From assembly GCA_947474705.1 (NCBI GenBank), contig CANJJS010000004.1:1-64000 (forward strand): a stretch of 64,000 bases of DNA, written 5' to 3'. This stretch comes from Acetobacteraceae bacterium (GTDB taxonomy: Bacteria > Pseudomonadota > Alphaproteobacteria > Acetobacterales > Acetobacteraceae). The notes beneath the pieces were generated by a model that did no database searches, was not told the origin of the DNA, and worked only from the letters and a program-made list of their open reading frames with translations. Made by a program: the position numbers and the translations under genes. This document shows, in pieces, positions 21,378 through 53,233 of the stretch (its first letter is position 1; each line of letters opens with the position of its first letter).

Positions 21378-22739
21378 ATGAGCAAGTCCCCCAGTCCATT
21401 TCCGTCGATCGACGCCTTGATCCGCGCGCCGGAGACCGCCGCGCCGATCGCGCGGTTTGGCCGTGCCGCCGTGGCCGACACGCTTCGCGCGGTGCTGGCC
21501 GCGCATCGCGAAGCCCGGCGTTTCGGTTTGACGTCTCTCGAAATCGTCGACGAAGCCGCCGACATTCTCGCCCGCCGCGCCACTGTTTCGCAGCGTCCCG
21601 TGTTCAATCTGACCGGCACGGTATTGCACACCAATCTCGGCCGCGCGCCGCTGCCACCCGAAGCCGCCGAGGCCGCGGCGCGCGCCTACCAAAGCGCCAC
21701 CAACCTGGAATACGACCTGTCCTCTGGGCGCCGGGGCGAGCGCGACGATCATATTTCCGGTCTGCTGCGCGAGCTGACAGGCGCCGAGGCCGCCACGGTC
21801 GTCAACAACAATGCCGCCGCGGTGCTGCTGGTGCTCAACGCGGTGGCATTGGGCAAGGAAGTGCCGGTGTCCCGCGGCGAACTGATCGAGATCGGCGGCG
21901 CGTTCCGGGTGCCGGACATCATGAGCCGGTCCGGCGCGATCTTGCGCGAAGTGGGAACCACCAACCGGACCCATCCGCGCGACTATCAAAACGCCATCGG
22001 CCCGGAGACCGCGGCGCTGATGCGCGTGCACCAGGCCAATTACGCCATTGTCGGGTTCACCGCCGCCGTGCCCACCGCGCAATTGGCCGCCATCGCCCAT
22101 GGCGCGAACATTCCCTTGATCGAGGATCTGGGGAGCGGCAGCCTGATCGACCTGGAACGATGGGGCCTGCCGCATGAGCCGACACCGCGCGGCGTCCTGG
22201 CCGATGGCGCCGACATCGTCACGTTTTCCGGCGATAAGCTGCTTGGCGGTCCACAGGCCGGTCTGATCGTGGGCCGCGCCGATCTTTTGAAGCGTATTAA
22301 CGCCAACCCGCTGAAACGGGCGCTCCGCCTGGACAAGGGCCGTCTGGCGGCGTTGGAGGCGGTGCTGCGCCTCTACCTCGACCCGGATCGTCTGGCCCAA
22401 CGGTTACCGGCGTTGCGGCTGCTGACGCGCGCCGAGGCCGACATAAGCGCGACCGCCGAACGTTTGTTGGGTCCGATGCGTCTGGCCTGGCCGGATCGTC
22501 CGATCTCTGTCGAGGCATGCCGCAGCCAGATCGGTTCGGGCGCGCTGCCCGTCGATGTGTTGCCGTCGGCGGCGGTGTGTGTGGGGGGCAAGGGGTTGGA
22601 CGCGCTGGCCGCCGGATTGCGCGTCCTGCCCAGGCCAGTGATTGGGCGGATTGGGCAGGACCGGCTTTGGCTGGACTGCCGCTGCCTGGAACCCGCCGAG
22701 GAAGGAATTTTCGTGGGACAGCTTCCCAAACCCGTGTGA
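21378..22739 (+). CDS. selA: L-seryl-tRNA(Sec) selenium transferase (selenocysteine synthase)
   Basis: A 453-residue PLP enzyme converting Ser-tRNA(Sec) to Sec-tRNA(Sec) with selenophosphate. Motifs: the N-terminal helical domain, [42 protein letters not shown], and [12 protein letters not shown] with the PLP lysine at about 287. ATG 21378 gives the normal length; the upstream frame is a shadow. The ribosome site is weak, and a TTGCCT/TATTCA pair with 18-base spacing (21341-21370) would start transcription almost at the ATG. The selenocysteine tRNA gene follows within 20 bases; selB, usually adjacent, is absent here. Confidence 0.96.
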
Positions 22740-22758
22740 GACGGGAATAATCCCCAAT

Positions 22759-22854
22759 GGAGGAGAAGCGGTCCCGGTGGGCCGGCCGGACTTCAAACCC
22801 GGTTGGGGCCGCCAGGCGGTCCTGGGTAGGTTCGACTCCTGCTCTCTTCCGCCA
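22759..22854 (+). tRNA. selC: tRNA-Sec (anticodon TCA)
   Basis: A 96-nt selenocysteine tRNA including the encoded CCA. The long 8-bp acceptor pairs GGAGGAGA with TCTCTTCC (one G-T pair), the discriminator is G, the anticodon arm is CCGGACTTCAAACCCGG with TCA, and an extended variable arm precedes GGTTCGACTCC in the T-arm. It closely resembles the bacterial consensus. It lies 20 bases after selA on the same strand, so the tRNA and its charging enzyme are probably co-transcribed. Confidence 0.97.
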
Positions 22855-36414: not shown

Positions 36415-38406
36415 ATGGTTTGGGACCTCAATATGTCCGCCAAGTCCGCCGGACGGCGATTGATGCGCCATGTTTCCGGCCGTGTTTCTCGCATGGCGGT
36501 GCTGACCGTTGGTCTGGCCACCGCCGGGGCCGCGCACGCGCAATCTCCGGTTTTAACGATTAACAATGAATTTTTAACCGATACGCGTTTGACCTCCACC
36601 TTATTGGTCGCGGGCCCGCCGGAAGTCGCCCGCGAAATGGCGCTGATAACGTCCGCGATGTTCGACGCCGCGAATGTGGTCAGTAACCTGCCTTACGCGC
36701 CGGTCGCGTTTTCGGGATCGGCGGCGCCGGGCACGTCTCTCGACGCCGCGGTGTTGTCGGCGGGGTATACGGCGTTGCGTGCCGTGTTCGCGAACAGCAT
36801 CTGGGCGGCGAGTCCTGGTGGCAATGCCGCTCTGCAAACCAGCATTCTCGCCAGAATCGACAACACTTACAACACAGCGTTGACCTCGATATCTGGCAGT
36901 CCCAGCAGTATCTCGGCCGGTGTTTCACTGGGTGTTTCCGCGGCGAACGCGAATCTCACGGCGCGAGGTTATGTGCCGGGTAATAATGGGGCGCTCGCCC
37001 AGGATGGATCGGCGACGGCGATTCTTAATGGGATCAACATGTCCTATACCGCGCCGGCTAGCCCAGTGCCCGGGGACTATATCCCACCCAACCAATCGCC
37101 ACAGGGCGGGCGGATCGCGATGTTTCCCGAGTGGGGCAGTGTGACTCCGGCGGCGTTGACCCCGGGACAGATGGCGTCCGTGAAAGCGTCCGCGCCTGGG
37201 ATACCCACCGTCACAAATCCAGGCAGCGGATATGCGGATGGCCTTTTGATGGCTCAGTGTTTGGGTGGCTCCGCGCCGCAGGGAGCGATTGCCAGCGTGT
37301 GTCATAACGCTGGCTTCGATGCCAGGACGTCCGAGCAGACCCGGGCGGCGTTTTTTTGGAACGACCCAGGCTCGACCAATCAGCCTCCGGGACATTGGCT
37401 CGACATCACGGACACGTTGATTCAGCAGCAAGGGATGTCCGTGCTGGATGCGGCGCGGACCTCGTCGCTGGTCAGTCAGGCCATAACCGATGCCGGTATC
37501 GCCGCATGGGGGGTTAAGTATCGGGATACCGTGTGGCGTCCGGTCACCGCGATTAACGATTGTAGCGGGTGGAACTCAGCGTTCACGACTTGCGACCCGA
37601 CCTGGACGTCGTTGATCGCGACGTCGCCGCATCCCGACTATGTGGCCGGGCATCCGGCGTTCAGTGGCGCGGCGCAGGGCGTTCTGACCGCGATCTTTGG
37701 CACGAATGTTGGATTTTCATCCACGTCGGACACGTATTGCAACGGCGGGGGATCCGCGTCGCTGCGTAGCGCGACAACCAGCCTGATCGCGGCTTGCACC
37801 GTGCAGGGGTCCTCGCAGTTCGCCATGGGTAAGGTCCCGAACGGCGCGGATGGGCAAAGGACGTTTTTTGGTTCCGCCGCGGATTGTGGATCGGTTGGCG
37901 GCGTACTGGCCATCTCTGGTGGAGATCCCGTGTCTTGTACCCTCGGTGGGTTTCCGTTCTACTTTCCCACGGTCGCCGGATGCTCGGCCGCGGGCGGGAC
38001 GACCAATCCGGTGGGACCCGGAATCACCGAGTGTACTCTGAACGGCCAAACCTATACGTTCAACACGGGAGACGTGCTGTACGGCACGGGGTGTAACAGC
38101 GCCGTGAATGGCGGTGCGAACGATAGCCCGCTGATCTGTCCGATCACGGAGACCTTCGCGACGATCGCCGATGCGTCGTCGGGCCCGAATGGATCCACCT
38201 TGTCGCGCGTTTACGGTGGAATCCATACGCCGTTCGCGGTTTTCGATGCGCAGTCGATCGGCAACCAGATCGGTGTGATTATCGCGACGGAGGCCAATCT
38301 GCCGGAGCCGGGCATGTTCGATTTACTAACCGTTATGATGGGCGGCCTGATGTGGATGCGGCGCACTGGCGGCGTGTCCATCGCGCATGGGCGCGGCGAG
38401 GTCTGA
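36415..38406 (+). CDS. Vanadium-dependent haloperoxidase-like (PAP2 superfamily) secreted protein with PEP-CTERM-like tail
   Basis: A 663-residue exported protein. The signal peptide has a long polar leader and ends near AGAAHAQS. The vanadate/phosphate site of the PAP2/haloperoxidase fold is complete: Lys368 and Arg375 in KYRDTVWRP, His413 in AGHPAFSG, Arg598 and His604 in SRVYGGIH. The K-R and R-H spacings (7 and 6) equal those of fungal chloroperoxidase. About 100 residues rich in Gly, Thr and Cys are inserted between His413 and Arg598. The end (LPEPGMFDLL, a hydrophobic segment, then MRR) resembles a PEP-CTERM sorting signal. AGGAGGAG precedes the ATG. Whether it oxidises halides or hydrolyses phosphate is unknown. 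Confidence 0.85.
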   Translation: MVWDLNMSAKSAGRRLMRHVSGRVSRMAVLTVGLATAGAAHAQSPVLTINNEFLTDTRLTSTLLVAGPPEVAREMALITSAMFDAANVVSNLPYAPVAFSGSAAPGTSLDAAVLSAGYTALRAVFANSIWAASPGGNAALQTSILARIDNTYNTALTSISGSPSSISAGVSLGVSAANANLTARGYVPGNNGALAQDGSATAILNGINMSYTAPASPVPGDYIPPNQSPQGGRIAMFPEWGSVTPAALTPGQMASVKASAPGIPTVTNPGSGYADGLLMAQCLGGSAPQGAIASVCHNAGFDARTSEQTRAAFFWNDPGSTNQPPGHWLDITDTLIQQQGMSVLDAARTSSLVSQAITDAGIAAWGVKYRDTVWRPVTAINDCSGWNSAFTTCDPTWTSLIATSPHPDYVAGHPAFSGAAQGVLTAIFGTNVGFSSTSDTYCNGGGSASLRSATTSLIAACTVQGSSQFAMGKVPNGADGQRTFFGSAADCGSVGGVLAISGGDPVSCTLGGFPFYFPTVAGCSAAGGTTNPVGPGITECTLNGQTYTFNTGDVLYGTGCNSAVNGGANDSPLICPITETFATIADASSGPNGSTLSRVYGGIHTPFAVFDAQSIGNQIGVIIATEANLPEPGMFDLLTVMMGGLMWMRRTGGVSIAHGRGEV

Positions 38407-42790: not shown

Positions 42791-45016
42791 ATGTCGCAAG
42801 ACGCCGCCGACGCCGGTCCGCGTGGAGCGCCCATTCATCCGCGTCTGATGGCGATGATGATGGCCGCCAGATATTTTGGGCTGGAACTCGATCCTCACGA
42901 ATTCCGCCTGGCGCAGGGGGAGACAAGCCCAGGGGCGGCGTCGTTATCGGATTGGGCGAAGAATTCCGGCATGTGGTCGCGCGCGCTGCGGCTTAAATGG
43001 CGGCACCTGATGAGTTTGGGTGGCTCTGGACCGGTGGTGTTGCTGTTCAACGACGGCACCGCCGGTCTGCTGACCGGTGCCAATCCGGAAGCCAAGATCG
43101 TCGGTCTGAAGGATCCGCGCGCACCGGAAGCCGAAGCCGCGATCATGGTCGACGAGATGCGTCTGGCCGAGGTGTGGAGCGGCGAAACGATCCTGCTTCG
43201 CGCCGAACGCGGGCAGGCGGAAGCGGATCCGCCGTTCACTCTGGGCTGGCTTTTCCAGATGATGATGAAGGAGGGAAAATCGCTTCGCGACCTCTTCATC
43301 GCGTCTCTGGCGCTCAGCTTCCTGACCATCATCCCGCCACTGCTGGTTATGTCGGTGGTCGATAAAGTGATCACGCATCAGAGTTTCTCGACGTTGTTCC
43401 TGATGAGCGTGATCCTTTCCATCATGGTCGCCTACGAGACCTTGCTGGGGTTCGCGCGGCGGTTGATCATCGCGGTGGTTGGTGTGCGAACCGACGCGAA
43501 GCTCAATTTGCATGTGTTCGCGCGTCTTGTTCGGTTGCCGCTGGATTACTTCGAGCGGCATCCGGCGGGCGAAACCATGTACAAAGTCAGCCAGATCCAT
43601 CAGGTTCGCGGTTTTATCACCGGTAAACTGCTGACCACGCTGCTGGACATGATCACGCTGGCTGTGCTGCTGCCGTTCCTGTTCTGGCTGAACGCGACCC
43701 TGGCCTGGATCGTGTTGATCTGTTCGACGGCGGTGCTGTTGATCATTTTGGCGTATCTACGGCCGATGCGGGTCGTCTACGGACGCGTCATCGTCGCGGA
43801 AACCAACAAGCAATCGGCGCTTGGCGAGACGGTTTTCGGTATCAAGACGGTTAAATCGCTCGCGTTGGAACCACAGCGGAAAACTTTGTGGGACGAACGT
43901 GTCGCCGAGGCTGGAAAATGGCGGCTCGCCTTCGGCAAGCTGGGCAACTGGCCGCAAACGCTGGTGACCCCGGTCGAGCGCTTCATGTGGATGGGGATCG
44001 TGATGATCGGTGCCTACCTGGCGCTGGTCGATCCGGGCACGTTTCAGGTCGGAAGTTTGTTCGCCTTCATGATGTTGTCCCAACGCGTCAGCCAGCCGCT
44101 GGTCGGTCTCGCGCGGCTGATCGAGGAATGGGAAGAGGTCGGCGGCGCCATGGGTCAGGCCGCGGAAGTGCTGAACAGGCCGTTGGAGGTCGACGCGGCT
44201 TCCGGCGGGTTGCGGCCGAAATTCGCCGGCGCGATCACCTACGAAGATGTCACGTTCACCTATGCGGGCACGAAAACGCCCGCGTTGGAGAAAGTCTCCT
44301 TCTCGATCCCGGCGGGCACGATGCTGGGTCTTGTCGGGCGTTCCGGGTCCGGTAAGTCCACGATCACCCGGTTGCTGCAGGGGATCAATCGCGAATACAC
44401 GGGCTTCGTCAAAATCGACAACGCGGACCTGCGGGAAATCAATCTGCGGCATTTGCGGTCGAGCTTTGGCGTGGTGTTGCAGGATAACTTCCTGTTCCGT
44501 GGTTCGATTCGCGACAATATTCTGGCGGGACGGCCGGGTCTCACCTTGGATGACGCCATTCGCGCGGCGCGGTTGGCGGGCGCCGAGGAGTTCATCGAGC
44601 GCATGCCGAATGGGTATGAGACCTATATCGAGGAAGGCTCGCCGAACCTGTCCGGCGGTCAGAAGCAGCGCCTCGCCATCGCTCGCGCCTTGATCACCGA
44701 CCCTCGTATTCTCATTTTGGACGAGGCGACCTCCGCGCTCGATCCGGAAAGCGAGGCGTTGGTCAACGCCAATCTGCTACGGATCGCGCGTGGCCGGACC
44801 ATGGTCATCGTCTCGCACCGGCTCTCGTCGCTCGTCGAATGCGACCAGATCATGGTGCTGGACAAAGGCAAGGTCATGGATATCGGCCCGCACGACAAGT
44901 TGCTGGAGCGGTGCACGGTCTATCGCCAGCTCTGGGCTCAGCAAAATCGTCATATGGATGTAAAACAAGGTCCCCGCCATGCCGCGCTCGCCCCAAACCT
45001 CGTCCACGGCAGTTAG
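42791..45016 (+). CDS. Type I secretion ABC exporter (permease/ATPase) with C39-like domain
   Basis: A 741-residue HlyB/LapB-type exporter. The N-terminal domain (about 1-140) has the C39 peptidase fold region, but no catalytic cysteine is seen, so it is a C39-like substrate-docking domain as in RTX exporters. Six transmembrane helices follow (about 170-430). The ATPase has Walker A GRSGSGKST near 516, Q-loop VVLQDNF, signature LSGGQKQR near 620, Walker B ILILDEATSALD near 640 and the VSHRLS switch. ATG 42791 has GGAGG 5 bases upstream; GTG 42704 is the longer option. It overlaps the HlyD gene by 38 bases and heads a six-gene operon. Confidence 0.93.
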   Translation: MSQDAADAGPRGAPIHPRLMAMMMAARYFGLELDPHEFRLAQGETSPGAASLSDWAKNSGMWSRALRLKWRHLMSLGGSGPVVLLFNDGTAGLLTGANPEAKIVGLKDPRAPEAEAAIMVDEMRLAEVWSGETILLRAERGQAEADPPFTLGWLFQMMMKEGKSLRDLFIASLALSFLTIIPPLLVMSVVDKVITHQSFSTLFLMSVILSIMVAYETLLGFARRLIIAVVGVRTDAKLNLHVFARLVRLPLDYFERHPAGETMYKVSQIHQVRGFITGKLLTTLLDMITLAVLLPFLFWLNATLAWIVLICSTAVLLIILAYLRPMRVVYGRVIVAETNKQSALGETVFGIKTVKSLALEPQRKTLWDERVAEAGKWRLAFGKLGNWPQTLVTPVERFMWMGIVMIGAYLALVDPGTFQVGSLFAFMMLSQRVSQPLVGLARLIEEWEEVGGAMGQAAEVLNRPLEVDAASGGLRPKFAGAITYEDVTFTYAGTKTPALEKVSFSIPAGTMLGLVGRSGSGKSTITRLLQGINREYTGFVKIDNADLREINLRHLRSSFGVVLQDNFLFRGSIRDNILAGRPGLTLDDAIRAARLAGAEEFIERMPNGYETYIEEGSPNLSGGQKQRLAIARALITDPRILILDEATSALDPESEALVNANLLRIARGRTMVIVSHRLSSLVECDQIMVLDKGKVMDIGPHDKLLERCTVYRQLWAQQNRHMDVKQGPRHAALAPNLVHGS

Positions 45017-46403
45017 CACTTCGGCCGGGACGGCGATCGCGGATCGCCATGACCCGACCCTGCCGGTGATTCTGGAATATCAGTCGCCGTCAAGTGCCAT
45101 TCTGAACACGCCGACCCCACGGATCGCCCGTGGGATCAGCCTGACCATCAGTACGATGGTGTTTGTCTGCTTTTTCGCGATGGGCGTGATCAAGGTCGAC
45201 AAAGTGGTCACGGCGCCCGGCAAGGTGATCGCCAAATCGCCGACCATCGTCATTCAGCCCTTGGAGGCCGCGATCGTTCGATCGATCGAGGTACGAGAAG
45301 GCGAAACCGTCCGCGCGGGTCAGATTCTCGCCCGGCTGGACCCGACCTTCGCGGCGGCCGATCTGGAAGCATTGAAAAACCAGGTCGCGGCCTTGTCGTC
45401 GCAGGTCGGACGGTTGCAGGCGGAGGCTGAGAACCGGCCGTTCACCTATACCGGATCCGACCCGCATCTCGCGCTGGAAGCGGCGATCTACGCGCAGCGT
45501 CAGGCCGAATATAATTTCAAGCTGGAAGGCTACCGGCAGAAAGCGGACAGTTTGTCGTCGCAGATCGCGCGAACCCGTTCCGATGTCGCGGGCTACCGCG
45601 ATCGACTGAGTGTCGCGACCAACCTTGAGAAGATGCGGATGGAGCTGGACCGGCTTGGGGTCGGTAGCCGGATCAACACGCTTTCGGCGATGGACACGCG
45701 GGCCGAAATGCAGCGGAACCTCGACTCCGTCGAACAGGCGGGGCTTGGGGCCCAGCGCGATCTGGCCGCCCTGATCGCGGAGCGGAATGGATACATCCAG
45801 AACTGGCACGCGGACGCGTCGCAAAAGCTCGCCGAGGCGACCGCGAAACTATCGGACGCCCGCGAGTCCTTCAATAAAGCGCAGCTTCGGCGCCAATTGG
45901 TGGAACTGCGCGCGGAACAGGACGCGACCGTTTTGACGGTCGGGCGAGGCATCTCCGTTGGATCGGTTCTGACGGCCGGACAACAGTTGATTTCGCTGGT
46001 TCCGGCGAACGCGCCTCTGGAAGTCGAGGTCAATATCCCCGGCAGCGAGGATGGCTATGTCCATGTCGGGGACGCGGTGGCGTTGAAGTTCGACACCTTC
46101 CCTTACACGCAATTCGGTATGGCGCACGGCGTGGTCCGCATTGTCAGCGCGGATAGTTTTTCGGCGGCGGATGAGCAGCGGAACCCCACCGGCGCGGTCC
46201 CTGGTCCGCAACAAGGGCCAGGCGTTTGGTTTCGGGCGCGAATCACGCTGGATCGGATCGAACTGCACGACACGCCGGCGGGTTTTCGCTTAAGTCCGGG
46301 CATGCCGGTCACCGCGGACGTTCTCGTTGGCAAGCGTACGGTCCTGGCCTATTTCCTTGGCCGTACTCTCCCGCTGTTCCAGGAAGGCATGAGGGAGCCA
46401 TAA
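44979..46403 (+). CDS. HlyD-family periplasmic adaptor (membrane fusion protein) of type I secretion
   Basis: A 474-residue adaptor. It has a cytoplasmic N-terminus of about 50 residues, one transmembrane helix (about 53-75), a biotinyl-lipoyl-like half-motif (VIQPLEAAIVRSIEVREGETVRAGQILARLDPT), a long coiled-coil hairpin (about 125-325) and the second lipoyl and beta-barrel parts ending LSPGMPVTADVLVGKR. It bridges the inner-membrane exporter to an outer-membrane TolC-type channel, which is not encoded nearby. It overlaps the exporter gene by 38 bases and precedes the Sel1 gene by 43. Confidence 0.94.
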   Translation: MPRSPQTSSTAVSTSAGTAIADRHDPTLPVILEYQSPSSAILNTPTPRIARGISLTISTMVFVCFFAMGVIKVDKVVTAPGKVIAKSPTIVIQPLEAAIVRSIEVREGETVRAGQILARLDPTFAAADLEALKNQVAALSSQVGRLQAEAENRPFTYTGSDPHLALEAAIYAQRQAEYNFKLEGYRQKADSLSSQIARTRSDVAGYRDRLSVATNLEKMRMELDRLGVGSRINTLSAMDTRAEMQRNLDSVEQAGLGAQRDLAALIAERNGYIQNWHADASQKLAEATAKLSDARESFNKAQLRRQLVELRAEQDATVLTVGRGISVGSVLTAGQQLISLVPANAPLEVEVNIPGSEDGYVHVGDAVALKFDTFPYTQFGMAHGVVRIVSADSFSAADEQRNPTGAVPGPQQGPGVWFRARITLDRIELHDTPAGFRLSPGMPVTADVLVGKRTVLAYFLGRTLPLFQEGMREP

Positions 46404-46446
46404 TCTCAGCATCGGTCACGTTAGCGGTTTCCACGTTGAGGATTAA

Positions 46447-48201
46447 ATGAGCGTGCTGGATAGTTTGATCGCACCGTTTTCCGCGACCGCGGCTCTGCGG
46501 CGGGCGGTGAAACTCACCGACCAGGGCGACCGCCGGTCCGCGTTTCCGCTTTTGGTGCGTGCGGCCCGTAAGGGCATCGCGGAGGCGGAATACCGGATTG
46601 GCCGGTGCTATTTGGAAGGCGCGGGCGTGCCTCCCAGCCGAAGCGAGGGCGTGCGATGGCTGGAAAAGGCCGGCGACCGTGGCTTCGTGGAGGCGCAGGC
46701 GTTGCTTGCGACCTTATGTCTGAATGGCATGGGCCCCGAGCAGGCCGGCAACGGAACGCTTTTTGGCGGCCAGGCCAAAGCGGGGCCGGATTATGAAAAC
46801 GCGTTGCGCTGGGCGCGACGGGCCGCGGAAGGCGGGTCGTCGGACGCGCAGGCGGTCATGGGGTTCATCCTCGGGTCCGGTCCTGAAACCGTGCGCGATC
46901 AGACAGAGTCCGATCGCTGGTATAAGCTGTCCGCGGAGGCGGGTTGCCCGCAAGGTCAACTGGGTTATGCCTTGGTACTGGCGCGCGATGCTCGGGAGCC
47001 CGAGGTTCAGGACCAGCTTGTCGTGCATCTGCGCGCGGCCGCGGAAAAAGGGCTCGCCACGGCGATGTTCCTGTATGGCATGATGCACGATCGCGGGATT
47101 GGCGCGCCGAAGGATCCGGCGGCCGCCGCGAAATGGTTCCAGCAGGCGGCTGAGAAAGGTCACGTATCGGCGCAGGCCAAGTACGGCTTCGCGCTGCTAC
47201 GCGGGATTGGCATTCCCGAAAACACGACGGAGGGTGAATCCTGGCTACGCCGGGCCGCCTTGGCGGGAGATCCGGAAGCCGCGGCGCTGGTGGGCGATAT
47301 TTACGCCAAAGGTGGCACCTTGCCTCCGAATTACGGCGAAGCCGCGATGTGGTTCCGTCGCGCGGTGGATGGGCGGCACAAGGGCGCGGCTCGCGCGTTG
47401 GCGATGTTGCATTTGACGGGTTCGGGCGTTCCCCGAGACCAGGACGAAGCCGCGCGTCTGTTCCGGATGGCGGCGCAGGCGGGCGATACCAGTTCGCATG
47501 CCGATCTTGGAAATCTGCTGTTAAAGGGTCATGGCGACCAGCAGGATTCGATCCTCACCCGCGAATGGTTCGAACAGGCCGCCAAGTCCGGCGATCTGAT
47601 CGCCGCGTTTAACTTCGGGGTTTGCCTCGCGGAAGGCGTTGGGATCGAGCGCGACGATCGTAAGGCGGCCGAATGGCTGCGGCGCGCGGCCGACGGTGTG
47701 ATCAATGCCCAGTACTGGTACGGACGGATGCTGGTCGAAGGCCGAGGCATCGACAAGAATGCCGAAGAAGGCCGGTCCTGGGTTTCGCGCGCCGCGGAAG
47801 CCGGAATGATCGAAGCCCAGGTGATGCTGGCGGATATGATGCTGAATGGGACGGGCGGCCCGAAGGATCATCCGGCTGGATTGGCCTTGTTCCTTAAGGC
47901 AGCGGAAGCCGGACATGTCGGCGCGATGTTCGCCTCCGGCGCGATGCTGGGTGGTGGCCACGATGTGCCAATGGATCGGGCGGCGGCGCAGACCTGGTAC
48001 CGGGCTGGCGCGGAGCGGGGTCACCCCTATGCTCAGATGATGCTCGGGCGGTTTTTGCTGCGCGGCGTCGCGGGCGAGCAAAACCCCGTGGAGGCGCGCG
48101 TGTGGCTGGAACGCGCCGCGGCGCAGGGATTGCAGGACGCGAAGACCGAGCTTGCCTCAATGCCGCCCGCGCCAGTCGAAGCGGCGCCCGAAGCGGTCTG
48201 A
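46447..48201 (+). CDS. Sel1-repeat (TPR-like) protein
   Basis: A 584-residue protein made almost entirely of Sel1-type repeats of about 36 residues, at least twelve of them (examples: AEYRIGRCYLEGAGVPPSRSEGVRWLEKAGDRG, QYWYGRMLVEGRGIDKNAEEGRSWVSRAAEAG). No signal peptide is visible, so it probably stays in the cytoplasm. Such solenoids act as protein-binding scaffolds. Its position inside the secretion operon suggests it presents the exported substrate or glycosyltransferases to the exporter, which is inference. The start follows GAGGATTAA closely. The next gene begins 14 bases after its stop. Confidence 0.9.
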   Translation: MSVLDSLIAPFSATAALRRAVKLTDQGDRRSAFPLLVRAARKGIAEAEYRIGRCYLEGAGVPPSRSEGVRWLEKAGDRGFVEAQALLATLCLNGMGPEQAGNGTLFGGQAKAGPDYENALRWARRAAEGGSSDAQAVMGFILGSGPETVRDQTESDRWYKLSAEAGCPQGQLGYALVLARDAREPEVQDQLVVHLRAAAEKGLATAMFLYGMMHDRGIGAPKDPAAAAKWFQQAAEKGHVSAQAKYGFALLRGIGIPENTTEGESWLRRAALAGDPEAAALVGDIYAKGGTLPPNYGEAAMWFRRAVDGRHKGAARALAMLHLTGSGVPRDQDEAARLFRMAAQAGDTSSHADLGNLLLKGHGDQQDSILTREWFEQAAKSGDLIAAFNFGVCLAEGVGIERDDRKAAEWLRRAADGVINAQYWYGRMLVEGRGIDKNAEEGRSWVSRAAEAGMIEAQVMLADMMLNGTGGPKDHPAGLALFLKAAEAGHVGAMFASGAMLGGGHDVPMDRAAAQTWYRAGAERGHPYAQMMLGRFLLRGVAGEQNPVEARVWLERAAAQGLQDAKTELASMPPAPVEAAPEAV

Positions 48202-48215
48202 CCGCGCGCCGCCGG

Positions 48216-50930
48216 GTGACACACCGCGTTGAAACGGAGGAGACCGCGCGCCGAAAGGCGCTTGTGGAAGATGCCTTTGCCCGTGGCGAGGCGGCTCTGG
48301 CCCGCGGCGATAATACGGACGCGGTTCGATGGCTCGATCGGGCCAGCCGGCTCGCTCCGGGAGAAAACACCATCCGGTTGGTGTTGGCCTCGGCATGGCT
48401 CGGTCTCGAACCGGCGCGGGCCGCGGAATTGTTTGAACAATTGGTGGAAGCCGTCGACTTACGGGATGCGTGGCTAGGTCTGGCAACGGCGCGATTTCTG
48501 GGGGGCGATATTCCCGGGACTCGTGCCGCGTTGCAATGGATCCTGAGTCGCCATGCGCTACGAGACGATCTGGTTGGGCTGGCAAATGCGATGGTGTTGG
48601 CGGCCGACTCACCGGGTTGGTGCGGACTGACCGGCCTGGGCGAGATCGCGGTTCACGCGCGAAAAGCGGCGTTTGTCGAAATCGCGATGGATGGCGTGCG
48701 CGTCCTGGGGCGAATTTTACCCGAGGGATGGCGAACGGCGGCAGAGGTCGCCGTCACCGTGTGCGGCACGCATTTGCCTGGCAGCCCGCTTTGTCCGCGC
48801 GCGATTGGCCGCGCGGAAGGCTTCGTGGACACGGGGAAGGGTGGGTTGCACGGTTGGGTCTGGCATCCCGCGGACCCTGAAATCGATCCCGTTCTGACTG
48901 TTCGAACGCAGGCGTTTCGGATGGATATCGCGGTGTCGGCACCGGCCAGCGGTGTCGCCGGACTCCCGCCGATGGCGCGGCCAAGGGCGTTCTCGATCCC
49001 TTGGAGCATGTTACCGAAAGGACGCGCGGCGGTGCATGTTTTCGGCGCCGATGGCCGGCCCTTACATGGCGCGCCCGTGCCCCGAAACCTCACCTCTCTC
49101 CGAACATCTCGACACATGGCCGGCCCACCGCCGGATCGCGTGCCGGCATGGCATCCCGTTGTGGCGGTCGCCCCCGATGCGGGGCACCTGATCGCGACAA
49201 AGGAACTGGCGGGCATCGCGCAAGGCGATATCGCGTCAGCCGCGAAAGCCTGGCCCGGTCACGATTTGGTGATTTTGGAAGAGGGGGTGCGTCTTCCGCG
49301 AAACTGGCTCGCGCGTCTGCGAAAAGCCGCTTACGCGTCCCCTGACATTGGCACGGTGAGTGTGTTTTCGAACCGAGGTGTTGTCGATTATCCCGGGTTG
49401 GATGGTCCCGGCATCGACCGCCTCGCCCGGAAAGCGAATGGCGCGCGAATCGTGGCCATCCCTGTTGCCAGTGGCCCTTGCATTTTTATCCGCCGGGATT
49501 GTCTCGATAGTCTGGGTACGGCGGCTCTCCAGGCCGCCGTCCTGGGACCTGGCGTTCCGGTGACGCTGTGCGCGATGGCCCCGGACTGGAACCATGTCGC
49601 CTTGCCCGGTCTTTTCGTGAGTCAGCCAAAGATCTCGCCACCGAATGCCCCGGGTCTGGCGCTGTCGGCGCGAAACGAACGGTTGTCGCGCCTGATCCAT
49701 CCGGGCCTGGACGTCGCGTTAGACCGGTTCCGCGAAGAAGATCCGCTCTCCGACGCGAAACGCCGTTTCGACCTGTCGCGATGGAACGAGTCAACGGCGC
49801 CCGGTGCGATCTTCGTCACCCATGACGACGGCGGAGGCGTGGAACGCCGCGTATCGGACGACGCCGCCGCCTGGGAAGCCCAAGGTGGCCGCGCCATCGT
49901 GTTGCGCCCGGCGACCTTGTCGGGCGGCGAACCCGGTGTCGCGGTCAGCGGTGCCGGCGACCGGCGGTTTCCAAACCTGACCTTCGCGATGCCGAAGGAA
50001 AAGGCGAAGCTGCGGCGATTTCTCCTGGGCTCGCGGCCGCGGTCGGCGAGCCTGCATCATTTTCTCAATCACGATCCCGCGACCATCGAGACAGTCCTGG
50101 AGCCTGGCTTACCCTACGACGTCCATGTTCACGATTTCATCTGGTTCTGCCCGCGAATCGCGCTGGTCGGTCAAGGTGATCGATATTGCCAGGAGCCTGG
50201 GATCGCGGGTTGCGAGACCTGCATTTCGGAAACCGGGTCCTTCCTGCGCGAACCCATCTCCGTCACCGCGTTGCGCGAACGATCCGGACGGATTCTGCGT
50301 GGCGCGCGGCGTGTTGTCGCCCCGTCCGGCGACGCGGCGGCGCGAATGCGGCGGCATTTTCCGGGCCTGCTCGTCGCGGCCGAACCGCATGAGGACGACG
50401 ACTCGATCCCGGAACCGCCACCCGTCACGGCCGGAACCGGCCCGGTGCGAATTTGCACGCCCGGCGGCATAGGGCTGCATAAAGGGTATCATGTGCTACT
50501 CGCCTGCGCCCGGAACGCCCGCGAGCGTGGATTGAACCTGATGTTCGATGTCGTGGGTAGCACCATCGACGACCAAAGCCTGATAGATACAGGTCATGTC
50601 TTCGTGACAGGCCCCTATCGCGCGAATGAGGCGGAGACCCTCATTCGCGCCCGAAACGCGACCTTGGGTTTCCTCCCCTCCATATGGCCCGAGACCTGGA
50701 CTTTCGCCCTGACGGAGCTTTGGCGCGCCGGGCTCCGTGTCGCCGCGTTCGACCTTGGGGCCCCGGCGGAGCGGATCCGGCGGACCGGACGGGGGTTTCT
50801 GCTTCCGTTGCATTCGCCACCCAGCGAGATCAACGATGTGTTTTTGAATGCCGCGAAAGGCGATCTTTTCTTCCGGTCTCGCGCGCTTCGTCCTACAAGC
50901 CTTACCAACGCTGCAACCCAGAGTAAGTGA
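48216..50930 (+). CDS. Multidomain glycosyltransferase-like protein (TPR, degenerate GT2-like and GT4-like domains)
   Basis: A 904-residue protein. Residues about 10-120 are TPR-like helices (RGEAALARGDNTDAVRWLDRASRLAP). Residues about 345-500 resemble a GT2 GT-A domain (DLVILEEGVRLPRNWLARL, then SGPCIFIRRDCL), but the usual DxD is replaced by EEG. Residues about 745-890 are a GT-B C-terminal domain (TPGGIGLHKGYHVLL, GPYRANEAETLIRARNATLGFLPS, SIWPETWTFALTELW). The start GTG 48216 is the only reasonable codon after the Sel1 stop; the longer frame lies inside Sel1. It overlaps the next gene by 4 bases. It probably glycosylates an exported protein or glycan; donor and acceptor are unknown. Confidence 0.8.
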   Translation: MTHRVETEETARRKALVEDAFARGEAALARGDNTDAVRWLDRASRLAPGENTIRLVLASAWLGLEPARAAELFEQLVEAVDLRDAWLGLATARFLGGDIPGTRAALQWILSRHALRDDLVGLANAMVLAADSPGWCGLTGLGEIAVHARKAAFVEIAMDGVRVLGRILPEGWRTAAEVAVTVCGTHLPGSPLCPRAIGRAEGFVDTGKGGLHGWVWHPADPEIDPVLTVRTQAFRMDIAVSAPASGVAGLPPMARPRAFSIPWSMLPKGRAAVHVFGADGRPLHGAPVPRNLTSLRTSRHMAGPPPDRVPAWHPVVAVAPDAGHLIATKELAGIAQGDIASAAKAWPGHDLVILEEGVRLPRNWLARLRKAAYASPDIGTVSVFSNRGVVDYPGLDGPGIDRLARKANGARIVAIPVASGPCIFIRRDCLDSLGTAALQAAVLGPGVPVTLCAMAPDWNHVALPGLFVSQPKISPPNAPGLALSARNERLSRLIHPGLDVALDRFREEDPLSDAKRRFDLSRWNESTAPGAIFVTHDDGGGVERRVSDDAAAWEAQGGRAIVLRPATLSGGEPGVAVSGAGDRRFPNLTFAMPKEKAKLRRFLLGSRPRSASLHHFLNHDPATIETVLEPGLPYDVHVHDFIWFCPRIALVGQGDRYCQEPGIAGCETCISETGSFLREPISVTALRERSGRILRGARRVVAPSGDAAARMRRHFPGLLVAAEPHEDDDSIPEPPPVTAGTGPVRICTPGGIGLHKGYHVLLACARNARERGLNLMFDVVGSTIDDQSLIDTGHVFVTGPYRANEAETLIRARNATLGFLPSIWPETWTFALTELWRAGLRVAAFDLGAPAERIRRTGRGFLLPLHSPPSEINDVFLNAAKGDLFFRSRALRPTSLTNAATQSK

Positions 50931-51922
50931 GTCACCGCATGCCTCCAGCCGACGACGCGGTCCAGGATCGAACCGATGCCTCCGATGGCGACGCGAAAAG
51001 CGCCGCGCCGGCACAAGCGGCCGTGGCGGATGCCGCCGGGGATCCCATACGCGAGCGGATTACGGAATTACGCGTGTCCGCCAATCTGATGACCCTTGAA
51101 ACTGGTATCTTTTGCGTGTTTCCGGCACCCGGAAGCTGTGCGCCGGATCCGATGACCGGGCTTCCCGGTGTCCGGGTGACGGCATGCCCAGGGCTCGCCG
51201 GGCGGCCGGATGTGGTGAGTATCAGTACGTTTCGCGACGATGGCTGGCTCGACAATACGGCCGCGCTGGTGCGGGTGACGGACGGTCCCGCGCAGGTTCT
51301 CGTGACGATCTATCAGGCCGCCGGACAACCGGGAGAGAATGCGCCCCGGTTGCAGGTGCTGCGTCTGACCGGAGACGAACCCAAGGCCGCGGCGGCGCCC
51401 GCCCCGGCGCCAGCCCCGTCCGACGGACCTGAACCCGATGTGATGGCGCATATCCAGGCGACCGGGGACGTACCCGGACAGTTTGGCGAGTGGATCGGTA
51501 CGCGCGGTAGCCGCGCCTGGATCGAGGGGTTTGGAATTTCCGATCGGGGCCCGATTCCGGCATGCGATATGGAATATCAAGGCGTCCTCGGACGCGGCTG
51601 GCTGTCGCCCTGGGTTGATAACGGCAAGTTCTGCGGCAGCCGCGGCATGGCCCTCCCGTTGCTCGGCCTGAATATCCGTTTGAAAGGCGAGACCGAAAAG
51701 CGGTTCACGGTCCGGTACTCCGCGACCTTCGTGGATGGCAGCGCGGTGGGACCCATCGAGGCCGGGAATTCGTGTGAGTCTCCGGGCCTCGCCGCCCTCG
51801 AGTCATTCCTGATCGAGCTGGTGCCGAAAGTGGACGAAACCGCCGGCGGCGGAAGCCCGGCCGGACGCGCCACGTCGCGGACGTCGGCTCCGCGCGGCGC
51901 GATTCGGCCTGGCCGCCGCTGA
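50927..51922 (+). CDS. Protein with ChW-like (hydrophobic-W) repeats, secretion/glycosylation operon
   Basis: A 331-residue protein with an acidic, disordered N-terminus (1-45), a beta-rich region (about 45-145) that includes a cysteine-bounded loop, an Ala/Pro linker (APAPAPAPS) and a C-terminal region (about 175-295). The latter resembles clostridial hydrophobic-W repeats: GTRGSRAWIEGFGI, then YQGVLGRGWLSPWVDNG with GSRGMALPLLGLNIRL. The tail is basic. No signal peptide. The GTG start overlaps the upstream stop; ATG 50939 is an alternative. Function unknown; ChW repeats elsewhere are carbohydrate- or surface-associated. Confidence 0.72.
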   Translation: MSHRMPPADDAVQDRTDASDGDAKSAAPAQAAVADAAGDPIRERITELRVSANLMTLETGIFCVFPAPGSCAPDPMTGLPGVRVTACPGLAGRPDVVSISTFRDDGWLDNTAALVRVTDGPAQVLVTIYQAAGQPGENAPRLQVLRLTGDEPKAAAAPAPAPAPSDGPEPDVMAHIQATGDVPGQFGEWIGTRGSRAWIEGFGISDRGPIPACDMEYQGVLGRGWLSPWVDNGKFCGSRGMALPLLGLNIRLKGETEKRFTVRYSATFVDGSAVGPIEAGNSCESPGLAALESFLIELVPKVDETAGGGSPAGRATSRTSAPRGAIRPGRR

Positions 51923-51949
51923 CCAATCGACCCTTATCGGGATGACGCC

Positions 51950-53233
51950 TTGAAGTTTTTGTTCGTCCACCAGAATTTTCCTGGTCAGTTCCTGCATATC
52001 GTTCGCCACCTGGCGAAAATGCGCGAGCACGACATCGTCTTTCTGACGGAGCCGAACGCGAACGATATTTTCGGGGTCCGGAAGGTGCCGTACGCGAAAC
52101 CGCGTCCGGCCTCCCAGGATACGCATGTCGCGGCGCGCGAACTGGATGTGGCGGTGCGACGGGCGGAAATCGTGGCCGCTTCGGCGATGAACCTGAAGAA
52201 TCTCGGCTACATCCCGGATATCATGATCGGCCACGCCGGCTGGGGGGAAATGCTGAACCTGGTCGATGTTTGGCCCGGCGTGCCGTCGATCCGATACATG
52301 GAATTCTACTACCGCACCGATAGCGCCGACGTGGTCTTCGACCCGGAATTCCCGATCGATCCCTCCGATTTCCCGCGAATCCGCGCCAAGAACGCGATCA
52401 ACCATCTCTCTCTGTATCAGGACGGGCTGGGGGTCTCGCCGACCGAGTGGCAATTGTCGACCTACCCGGAATGGGCGCGCGACCGGATCGATTTGTTGTG
52501 GGAGGGTGTCGAACTCGACGTTTGCTCGCCCGATGCGTCGGTGCGCCGGAAGCCGCTCGTCGTCGGCGGCATGACGATCGAACCCGGCGATTGCCTGGTG
52601 ACCTACGTATCGCGGGACCTCGAGCCCTATCGCGGCGTGCACCCGATGATCCGGTCCCTGCCGCACCTTATGAAAGACCGGAAAAACCTCAAGGTCGTGA
52701 TGGTGGGGGGCGATAGCGTAAGCTACGGCTCGCCGCCGCCGGACGGCGGGTCCTGGAAAGATCGCTTCCTTAAAGAAGTCGAGGGACAGGTCGATCTGAC
52801 GCGCGTCGCTTTCCCAGGCCGGGTCGAGTACGAGGTTTATCTCTCTCTGCTGCGCCGATCCGACGCGCATGTCTACCTGACCTATCCGTTCGTCGCGTCG
52901 TGGTCGCTGCGGGAGGCGATGGCCGTGGGGTGCGCGATTGTTGGCAGCGACACGCCGCCGGTGCGGGAATTCGTGACCCATGGCGAAACCGGGCTGCTGA
53001 CGTCGTTTTTCGATCCGCCAGCTTTGGCGGCGGCGGTTCTGGAACTGGTGGACAACAAGAAACTCGCGCGCACCCTGCGCAAGAACGCCCGTGCCTTCGC
53101 CGAGCGGCACCTGGGCATGGACCAGTATTTACGCGCGTTTTCCGCGAAAATAGAGGGGCTGACCGGCCTGTCTCTGGTCGTTCCGGAATCCCGGCCCAAG
53201 GCGGCCGCGAAACGCGGCCGCGCCAAGACCTGA
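51950..53233 (+). CDS. Glycosyltransferase family 4 protein
   Basis: A 427-residue GT-B enzyme. The N-terminus KFLFVHQNFPGQFLHIVRHL is characteristic of a GT4 subgroup; DLEPYRGVHPMIRSLPHLMKDRKNLKVVMVGGD and FPGRVEYEVYLSLLRRSDAHVYLTYPFVASWSLREAMAVGCAIVGSDTPPVREFV form the nucleotide-sugar lobe. The start is TTG 51950, giving the family N-terminus, with GGGATGA upstream. It closes the six-gene operon, 27 bases after the ChW-like gene. Its stop abuts the convergent DsbA-like gene. Sugar and acceptor unknown. Confidence 0.92.
   Translation: MKFLFVHQNFPGQFLHIVRHLAKMREHDIVFLTEPNANDIFGVRKVPYAKPRPASQDTHVAARELDVAVRRAEIVAASAMNLKNLGYIPDIMIGHAGWGEMLNLVDVWPGVPSIRYMEFYYRTDSADVVFDPEFPIDPSDFPRIRAKNAINHLSLYQDGLGVSPTEWQLSTYPEWARDRIDLLWEGVELDVCSPDASVRRKPLVVGGMTIEPGDCLVTYVSRDLEPYRGVHPMIRSLPHLMKDRKNLKVVMVGGDSVSYGSPPPDGGSWKDRFLKEVEGQVDLTRVAFPGRVEYEVYLSLLRRSDAHVYLTYPFVASWSLREAMAVGCAIVGSDTPPVREFVTHGETGLLTSFFDPPALAAAVLELVDNKKLARTLRKNARAFAERHLGMDQYLRAFSAKIEGLTGLSLVVPESRPKAAAKRGRAKT

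Follow-up and report, generated by a model that had tools for sequence, protein, structure and literature searches.

The 64,000-nucleotide stretch of Acetobacteraceae DNA analyzed here (the window, whose positions are used for all operon coordinates) carries a type I secretion operon of six tightly packed open reading frames (ORFs), all on the plus strand at 42791..53233. The original prediction, made from the letters without database searches, had described six head-to-tail genes with short spacings and had guessed their families as a C39-like ABC exporter, a HlyD adaptor, a Sel1-repeat protein, a three-module protein of the glycosyltransferase (GT) kind, a ChW-like protein and a GT4 enzyme. 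Both the arrangement and the families agree with the profile results in Table 1, which give a HlyB-type exporter, tetratricopeptide repeat (TPR) and glycosyltransferase modules in gene 4 and a PF12000/GT4 enzyme as gene 6. The absence of a substrate gene beside the operon is likewise borne out, as all 14 matches to the RTX profile PF00353 in the same genome sit on other contigs. The Rhodospirillales framing of the lineage is corrected here to Acetobacteraceae; the two named relatives are metagenome-assembled genomes of this family. A scan for consensus promoters and terminators yields signals no commoner than in shuffled sequences.

Table 1. The six genes of the operon, with window positions, junctions and profile support (b, bases)
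Gene	Product	Position	Strand	Alternative start	Junction with next gene	Support
1	Type I secretion ABC exporter (HlyB type), cysteine-less N-terminal C39-like domain	42791..45016	+	GTG 42704	38 b overlap	TIGR01846, PF00664, PF00005
2	HlyD-family periplasmic adaptor	44979..46403	+		43 b gap	TIGR01843, 341 bits
3	Sel1-repeat protein	46447..48201	+		14 b gap if gene 4 starts at GTG 48216; 100 b overlap if at GTG 48102	PF08238, 282 bits, 10 stretches
4	TPR, beta-rich linker (interpretive), GT2 remnant, GT4	48216..50930	+	GTG 48102	8 b gap if gene 5 starts at ATG 50939; 4 b overlap if at GTG 50927	GT4 and TPR matches under cut-off; orthologues
5	Two-part protein with ChW-like repeats	50939..51922	+	GTG 50927	27 b gap	PF07538, 27 bits; homologues
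6	GT4 glycosyltransferase, PF12000 type	51950..53233	+			PF12000, 182 bits; PF00534, 75 bits

Among NCBIfam models the exporter is best matched by TIGR01846 (538 bits, under the cut-off of 726), and its PF00664 and PF00005 domains both score above cut-off. Its C39-like domain, taken as the region aligned to residues 1-150 of the window copy, is free of cysteine in 27 of 29 aligned sequences, the window copy included. Since a review of such exporters, in the portion available, describes C39-like domains as accompanying RTX cargo (PMC8277102), a C39-like domain without cysteine fits a cargo of the RTX type. The HlyD adaptor clears the TIGR01843 cut-off of 209 bits and is the only protein of its genome to do so. 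A single above-cut-off match was obtained in 17 of the 20 genomes with the ChW marker (gene 5) tested for HlyD, and in 16 of these 17 it is the adaptor of the operon itself, as judged by position in 13 and by contig reading in three (G034, G039 and G044); the match in G041 is unplaced. Two or three matches occur in G021, G049 and G051. Given the single HlyD adaptor in the window's own genome, the operon exporter is the likely route there for HlyD-dependent cargo, which may include other RTX proteins. No TolC-type outer membrane channel is encoded among the six genes, and the rest of the genome was not searched for one.

Gene 5, the ChW protein, was used alone as the marker of the operon, with a few weak or partial matches among its hits (G181, 5e-11; G165, 1e-43; G121, 2e-46). 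As a query at an E value of 1e-3 it finds matches in 50 of 98 genomes, namely in all 33 of the same genus, in 17 of the 25 that belong to the family's other genera and in none of the 40 outside the family. A gene 5 profile at 1e-10 matches 150 of 220 Acetobacteraceae genomes, representing 73 of 102 genera. The six genes form an unbroken run in the same order at 35 of 42 loci (29 of 36 in a first set and all six in a second set, the latter chosen because the genome carries the marker), in line with the expectation that the genes would be conserved together in related genomes. Five of the seven incomplete first-set loci are cut by a contig edge, and the other two (G044 and G051) have the ChW and GT4 genes apart from the rest; L039 and L040, whose genomes already contribute a counted or an edge-cut locus, and a broken site in G197 were left out of the count. 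The genes flanking the operon vary between lineages, so the conserved unit appears limited to these six.

The starting lead to a candidate substrate came from G050, where genes 4 and 5 occur a second time (contig C53, L080), with no exporter and downstream of a gene for an RTX-like repeat protein of 1043 residues. Used as a query, this protein matched, by way of its repeats, a family of mostly 400-490 residue proteins with the N-terminus M..VTV.GA and the C-terminus ...TITLSD.TKITF.GVT.L..SNF flanking glycine-rich repeats. Among the 29 members in which both ends are recognized, 28 are 399-490 residues long, 26 are free of cysteine and all are net acidic. The clearest member in the window's own genome (428 residues; contig C35, ~22.4-23.7 kb; L096/L187) contains one cysteine and matches solved RTX-repeat proteins (proteases, lipases and toxin repeat blocks) via the repeats only; two more ORFs of this genome, on contigs C71 and C171, carry the family C-terminal domain. 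PF00353 scores 46.8 bits in the own-genome copy and 22.4 bits, against a cut-off of 23, in that of G057. In G045, which has the operon and a 475-residue family member, PF00353 finds no match, and RTX repeats alone were accordingly rejected as a substrate marker. By hydropathy scan only, the N-termini of 20 of 21 candidate substrates score below 1.75, as compared with 2.48 for a DsbA-like neighbor and 1.76 for another protein of the window with a signal-like N-terminus. The conserved C-terminal domain is consistent with a C-terminal secretion signal. The substrate had been predicted to be large; the candidates are instead mostly small (about 400-490 residues), although larger proteins share the C-terminal domain, some of them with AIDA repeats (G171). 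A dense cluster in G171 (contig C1, ~1.79-1.90 Mb, L225) encodes large proteins, in open frames of up to 3512 residues, with a C-terminal domain of the substrate type; the two examined carry AIDA and RTX repeats, and 12-17 C-terminal profile matches were found in three genomes of the same genus.

This family keeps company with the operon across the Acetobacteraceae. Family profiles A2 and A3 draw their sequences from 19 of the first 58 genomes (the marker being present in 18 of the 19), and the thresholds, 1e-3 for the N-terminal and 1e-8 for the C-terminal profile, were fixed after inspection of those 58. Within this first set, 49 of 50 genomes with the marker (48 if G050, found through its own row in the profile, is discounted) show either end of the family, as does one of eight without it. 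In a held-out set of 191 genomes (G098-G288), either end is found in 106 of 129 genomes with the marker versus 8 of 62 without (p=1.2e-20, phylogeny ignored). The N-terminal profile alone separates the held-out genomes as 73 of 129 versus 2 of 62, the C-terminal profile alone as 95 of 129 versus 7 of 62, and the requirement for both ends as 62 of 129 versus 1 of 62. At the level of genera, the N-terminal profile matches in 51 of 73 marker genera and in one of 29 others across all 220 genomes. None of these figures takes common descent into account. The C-terminal profile is the less specific of the two, reaching five of the eight marker-less genomes of the first set at 1e-5 and seven of the 62 held-out ones at 1e-8.

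The single marker-less held-out genome with both ends, G197, was considered and rejected as an example of a substrate without the operon, as fragments of five of the six genes stand at its operon site, with no ChW piece recognized. Its substrate gene and many others are split as well, so this genome is uninformative on co-loss. G197 (L241, L242 and L238) is a 2-Mb single-contig genome with many split genes, either an error-rich assembly or a decaying genome. In G036, the substrate is present without the ChW marker; TIGR01843 finds no match there at 1e-10, which makes an assembly gap likely.

In every locus read, the candidate cargo is unlinked to the exporter. The original prediction had proposed looking for RTX-type or repeat-rich ORFs linked to the unit in related genomes; a shared candidate substrate family does co-occur, encoded elsewhere than the exporter. 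In many loci its members lie near glycosyltransferases. A glycosyltransferase stands no more than two genes away from the family member in 18 of the 42 loci inspected; among more distant genes, used as background, the figure is 3 of 104. These background genes come from those of the loci in which gene calling recovered the substrate. The loci were hand-picked from the hits, omitting the edge-cut L202, L228 and L264 and the broken L238, and the proteins of G050 and G042 were removed from the member counts, lowering the figure from 20 of 44. Tandem glycosyltransferase proteins, recognized by Pfam, stand on both sides of the substrate in G045 and G057 and on one side in G054. A second type of RTX-like protein adjoins second copies of gene 4 in G050 (C53, where gene 5 is adjacent too; L080/L263) and in G042 (C96 and C155; L205/L264), the G042 copy being 48% identical to the gene 4 of the G050 operon (E value 1e-219). 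The G050 and G042 proteins support an RTX-like neighbor of gene 4 and not membership in the family; the N-terminal profile hits of the loci in hand are unchanged when rescored without the G050 row.

A linkage of another kind is seen in G522, a member of another family of the class, where the gene order is substrate, a fusion of the gene 4 type (TPR-GT) protein with the ChW protein, a methyltransferase-like gene and GT4. The substrate gene lies directly upstream of the fusion on the same strand and encodes an RTX-like protein with the family C-terminal domain (2e-19). A Sel1 gene stands at the contig edge, and no HlyB/HlyD pair was recognized in the 55 of 65 kb of this contig that were read.

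Gene 5 matches the ChW profile PF07538 above its cut-off of 22 bits. Its two invariant cysteines are C59 and C232 in the numbering of the aligned form, and its N-terminus has no strongly hydrophobic stretch. AlphaFold2, run on three sequences, gave an unusable model (mean predicted local distance difference test score, pLDDT, of 32.7). Outside the Acetobacteraceae, a homologue was found at 1e-5 in only 2 of 285 genomes of the class (G522 and G492). Both genomes have it joined to the end of a complete gene 4 homologue, with a homologue of gene 6 next in line. The ChW protein goes with the glycosyltransferase, and its proposed role as an adaptor of the exporter is not supported here. ChW repeats are surface modules in Gram-positive bacteria, and gene 5 is the marker of the unit, which together with an N-terminus that is not strongly hydrophobic could suggest that the ChW protein itself is the exported cargo and the RTX-like family incidental. 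The invariant cysteine pair and the natural fusions to a glycosyltransferase in G522 and G492 argue otherwise, and we regard this explanation as very improbable. Among second copies of the ChW gene at L061 (G000:C2), L078 (G027:C34) and L079 (G042:C40), two adjoin the same small conserved gene and an acetolactate-synthase-like gene.

Closer examination of gene 4 reveals a GT4 module whose PETW motif is present in all 33 sequences. The GT2 module of the orthologues scores above cut-off, and its motif is retained in 28 of the 33. In the remaining five, the window copy and four close relatives (L041, L049, L052 and L054), the GT2 active-site motif has decayed or changed and the GT4 module is kept, so that in the window species the work of glycosylation would be left to two GT4 modules, those of genes 4 and 6. 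No sequence relatives were found at the thresholds used in the PDB for the gene 5 profile and one gene 4 orthologue, nor in PHROGs for genes 4 and 5. Three glycosyltransferase modules might also be expected of a locus for polysaccharide or oligosaccharide export whose ABC exporter is unusual, and type IV ABC transporters move glycolipids as well, according to the available portion of the review cited above (PMC8277102). Such a locus is nevertheless improbable here, where the exporter belongs to a HlyB/HlyD pair and has a C39-like domain, a family of proteins accompanies the unit, and genes for Wzx, Wzy, Wza and an ABC-2 exporter are absent from it.

The results described above make it rather probable that the operon serves to produce RTX-like surface proteins in glycosylated form and to export them, coupling glycosylation in the cytoplasm to type I export. 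The parts of this proposal differ in strength: export of RTX-like proteins by the operon is well supported, the missing substrate is probably the RTX-like family encoded elsewhere in the same genomes, and glycosylation of this cargo by the operon enzymes is predicted from the genes. The substrate, encoded at other sites of the genome, would be synthesized in the cytosol and modified there by the TPR-GT2/GT4 protein and the GT4 enzyme. The ChW protein would act as a partner of the TPR-GT protein, perhaps as a carbohydrate- or substrate-binding subunit. The HlyB-type exporter and HlyD, together with an unlinked TolC-type channel, would then carry the substrate out by means of its C-terminal signal, a route that may serve several repeat proteins. 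The dedicated apparatus for glycosylation and export put forward in the original prediction finds support in gene order, held-out co-occurrence, the glycosyltransferase neighbors and one fusion beside a family member; its glycosylation step stays at the level of a prediction.

Alternatively, the exporter could secrete RTX-like proteins while genes 3-6, instead of glycosylating them, direct the synthesis of a glycan or glycolipid on the cell surface to which the secreted protein is anchored or by which it is received, much as smooth lipopolysaccharide (S-LPS) anchors the S-layer. Co-occurrence and linkage are predicted by both readings, the acceptors of the glycosyltransferases are unreadable from sequence, and their modules resemble generic GT4 and GT2 enzymes. 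We nonetheless consider this division of labor unlikely, as the conserved unit comes without a flippase, polymerase, priming transferase or ligase, gene 4 bears TPR repeats, and the TPRGT-ChW gene of G522 directly adjoins the substrate gene.

Several observations weigh against coupled glycosylation and export. Neither end of the family is seen in 23 of the 129 held-out genomes with the marker, and 8 of the 62 without it show one. A glycosyltransferase neighbor is missing from 24 of the 42 substrate loci; in the window's own genus, none of five loci (two in G000 and one each in G021, G024 and G006) has one adjoining, nor has the contig-edge copy on C171. The 1043-residue G050 protein and its G042 relative are found neither by the N-terminal profile without the G050 row nor by the C-terminal profile. 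Four ChW copies (L061, L078, L079 and L080) lie away from any exporter, which in part answers to a circumstance that the original prediction had named as telling against it; all four are second copies, and their genomes also carry the operon. With its motif lost or altered, as in the four relatives, the GT2 module of the window gene 4 looks dead. Many GT4 enzymes carry E at the first position of the EX7E motif, where F stands in all 38 gene 6 sequences. An excess of N-glycosylation sequons was set aside as evidence, since the RTX repeat motif, with its NDT, contains a sequon. Finally, the glycan and the secretion are unobserved: glycosylation, the order of events, the Sel1 and ChW roles, the TolC partner and the surface location are all read from genes.

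We offer, as a tentative possibility, a more elaborate family-wide 'glyco-type I' pathway. In this scheme a TPR-GT2-GT4/ChW complex would glycosylate nascent RTX-like proteins, the Sel1 protein and the glycans would keep them unfolded for a dedicated HlyB exporter, and glycosylation would be a condition of export. This pathway would parallel, on the type I side, the accessory Sec route of Gram-positive bacteria, giving a glycoprotein surface coat.

Two further features of the window lie apart from the operon. At 21378-22854 (+), a selA gene (PF03841, 514 bits) immediately precedes a tRNA-SeC gene, the two forming a selenocysteine locus. At 36415-38406 (+), a protein of 663 residues, with no Pfam match at 1e-3, ends in a PEP/hydrophobic/basic tail that, on our interpretation, resembles a PEP-CTERM sorting signal.

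With a candidate cargo family named, what had been an orphan exporter operon becomes a pathway open to testing. Its marker occurs in 73 of the 102 genera sampled from a family of biotechnological importance. If correct, the proposal predicts a glycoprotein surface layer or adhesin in these bacteria, and the unit, combining protein glycosylation with type I export, would join the few known routes in which proteins are coated with sugar before export. No published description of the six-gene unit was found in the open-access literature searched; a study that counts Sel1 proteins in Asaia describes no operon in its available portion (PMC8156966).

The operon can be compared with several known systems. 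It shares with HlyB/HlyD type I secretion an ABC exporter with a cysteine-less C39-like domain, a HlyD adaptor and a candidate cargo that is cysteine-poor, acidic and RTX-like with a conserved C-terminus, and it differs in that the exporter is co-encoded with Sel1, TPR-GT, ChW and GT4 proteins and the candidate cargo is unlinked. The autotransporters AIDA-I and TibA belong to type V secretion, with heptosyltransferases of another family; the likeness lies in the AIDA repeats of large G171 proteins bearing the family C-terminal domain. Glycosylation of these autotransporters can occur, according to the available part of one source (PMC3835316). SwmA and oscillin, cyanobacterial RTX-repeat surface proteins, are reported to be glycosylated; the likeness is one of description, and the accessible part of that source does not mention the six-gene unit (PMC3034196). 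In the accessory Sec system, as far as the available text goes, a repeat protein is glycosylated in the cytosol by GtfA-GtfB and then moved by a dedicated exporter (PMC5578698, PMC7948813). That exporter is SecA2/SecY2 and its cargo carries Ser-rich repeats, in contrast to the type I exporter and RTX-like repeats seen here, and no SecA2/SecY2 stands beside the glycosyltransferases in the conserved six-gene unit. GtfA/B are themselves of the GT4 type. RTX glycoproteins such as SwmA and oscillin, and cytosolic glycosylation coupled to export as in accessory Sec, are thus already known; what appears to be added here is a form of type I secretion whose genes are conserved together with a probable protein-glycosylating module and whose candidate cargo family is encoded at unlinked sites.

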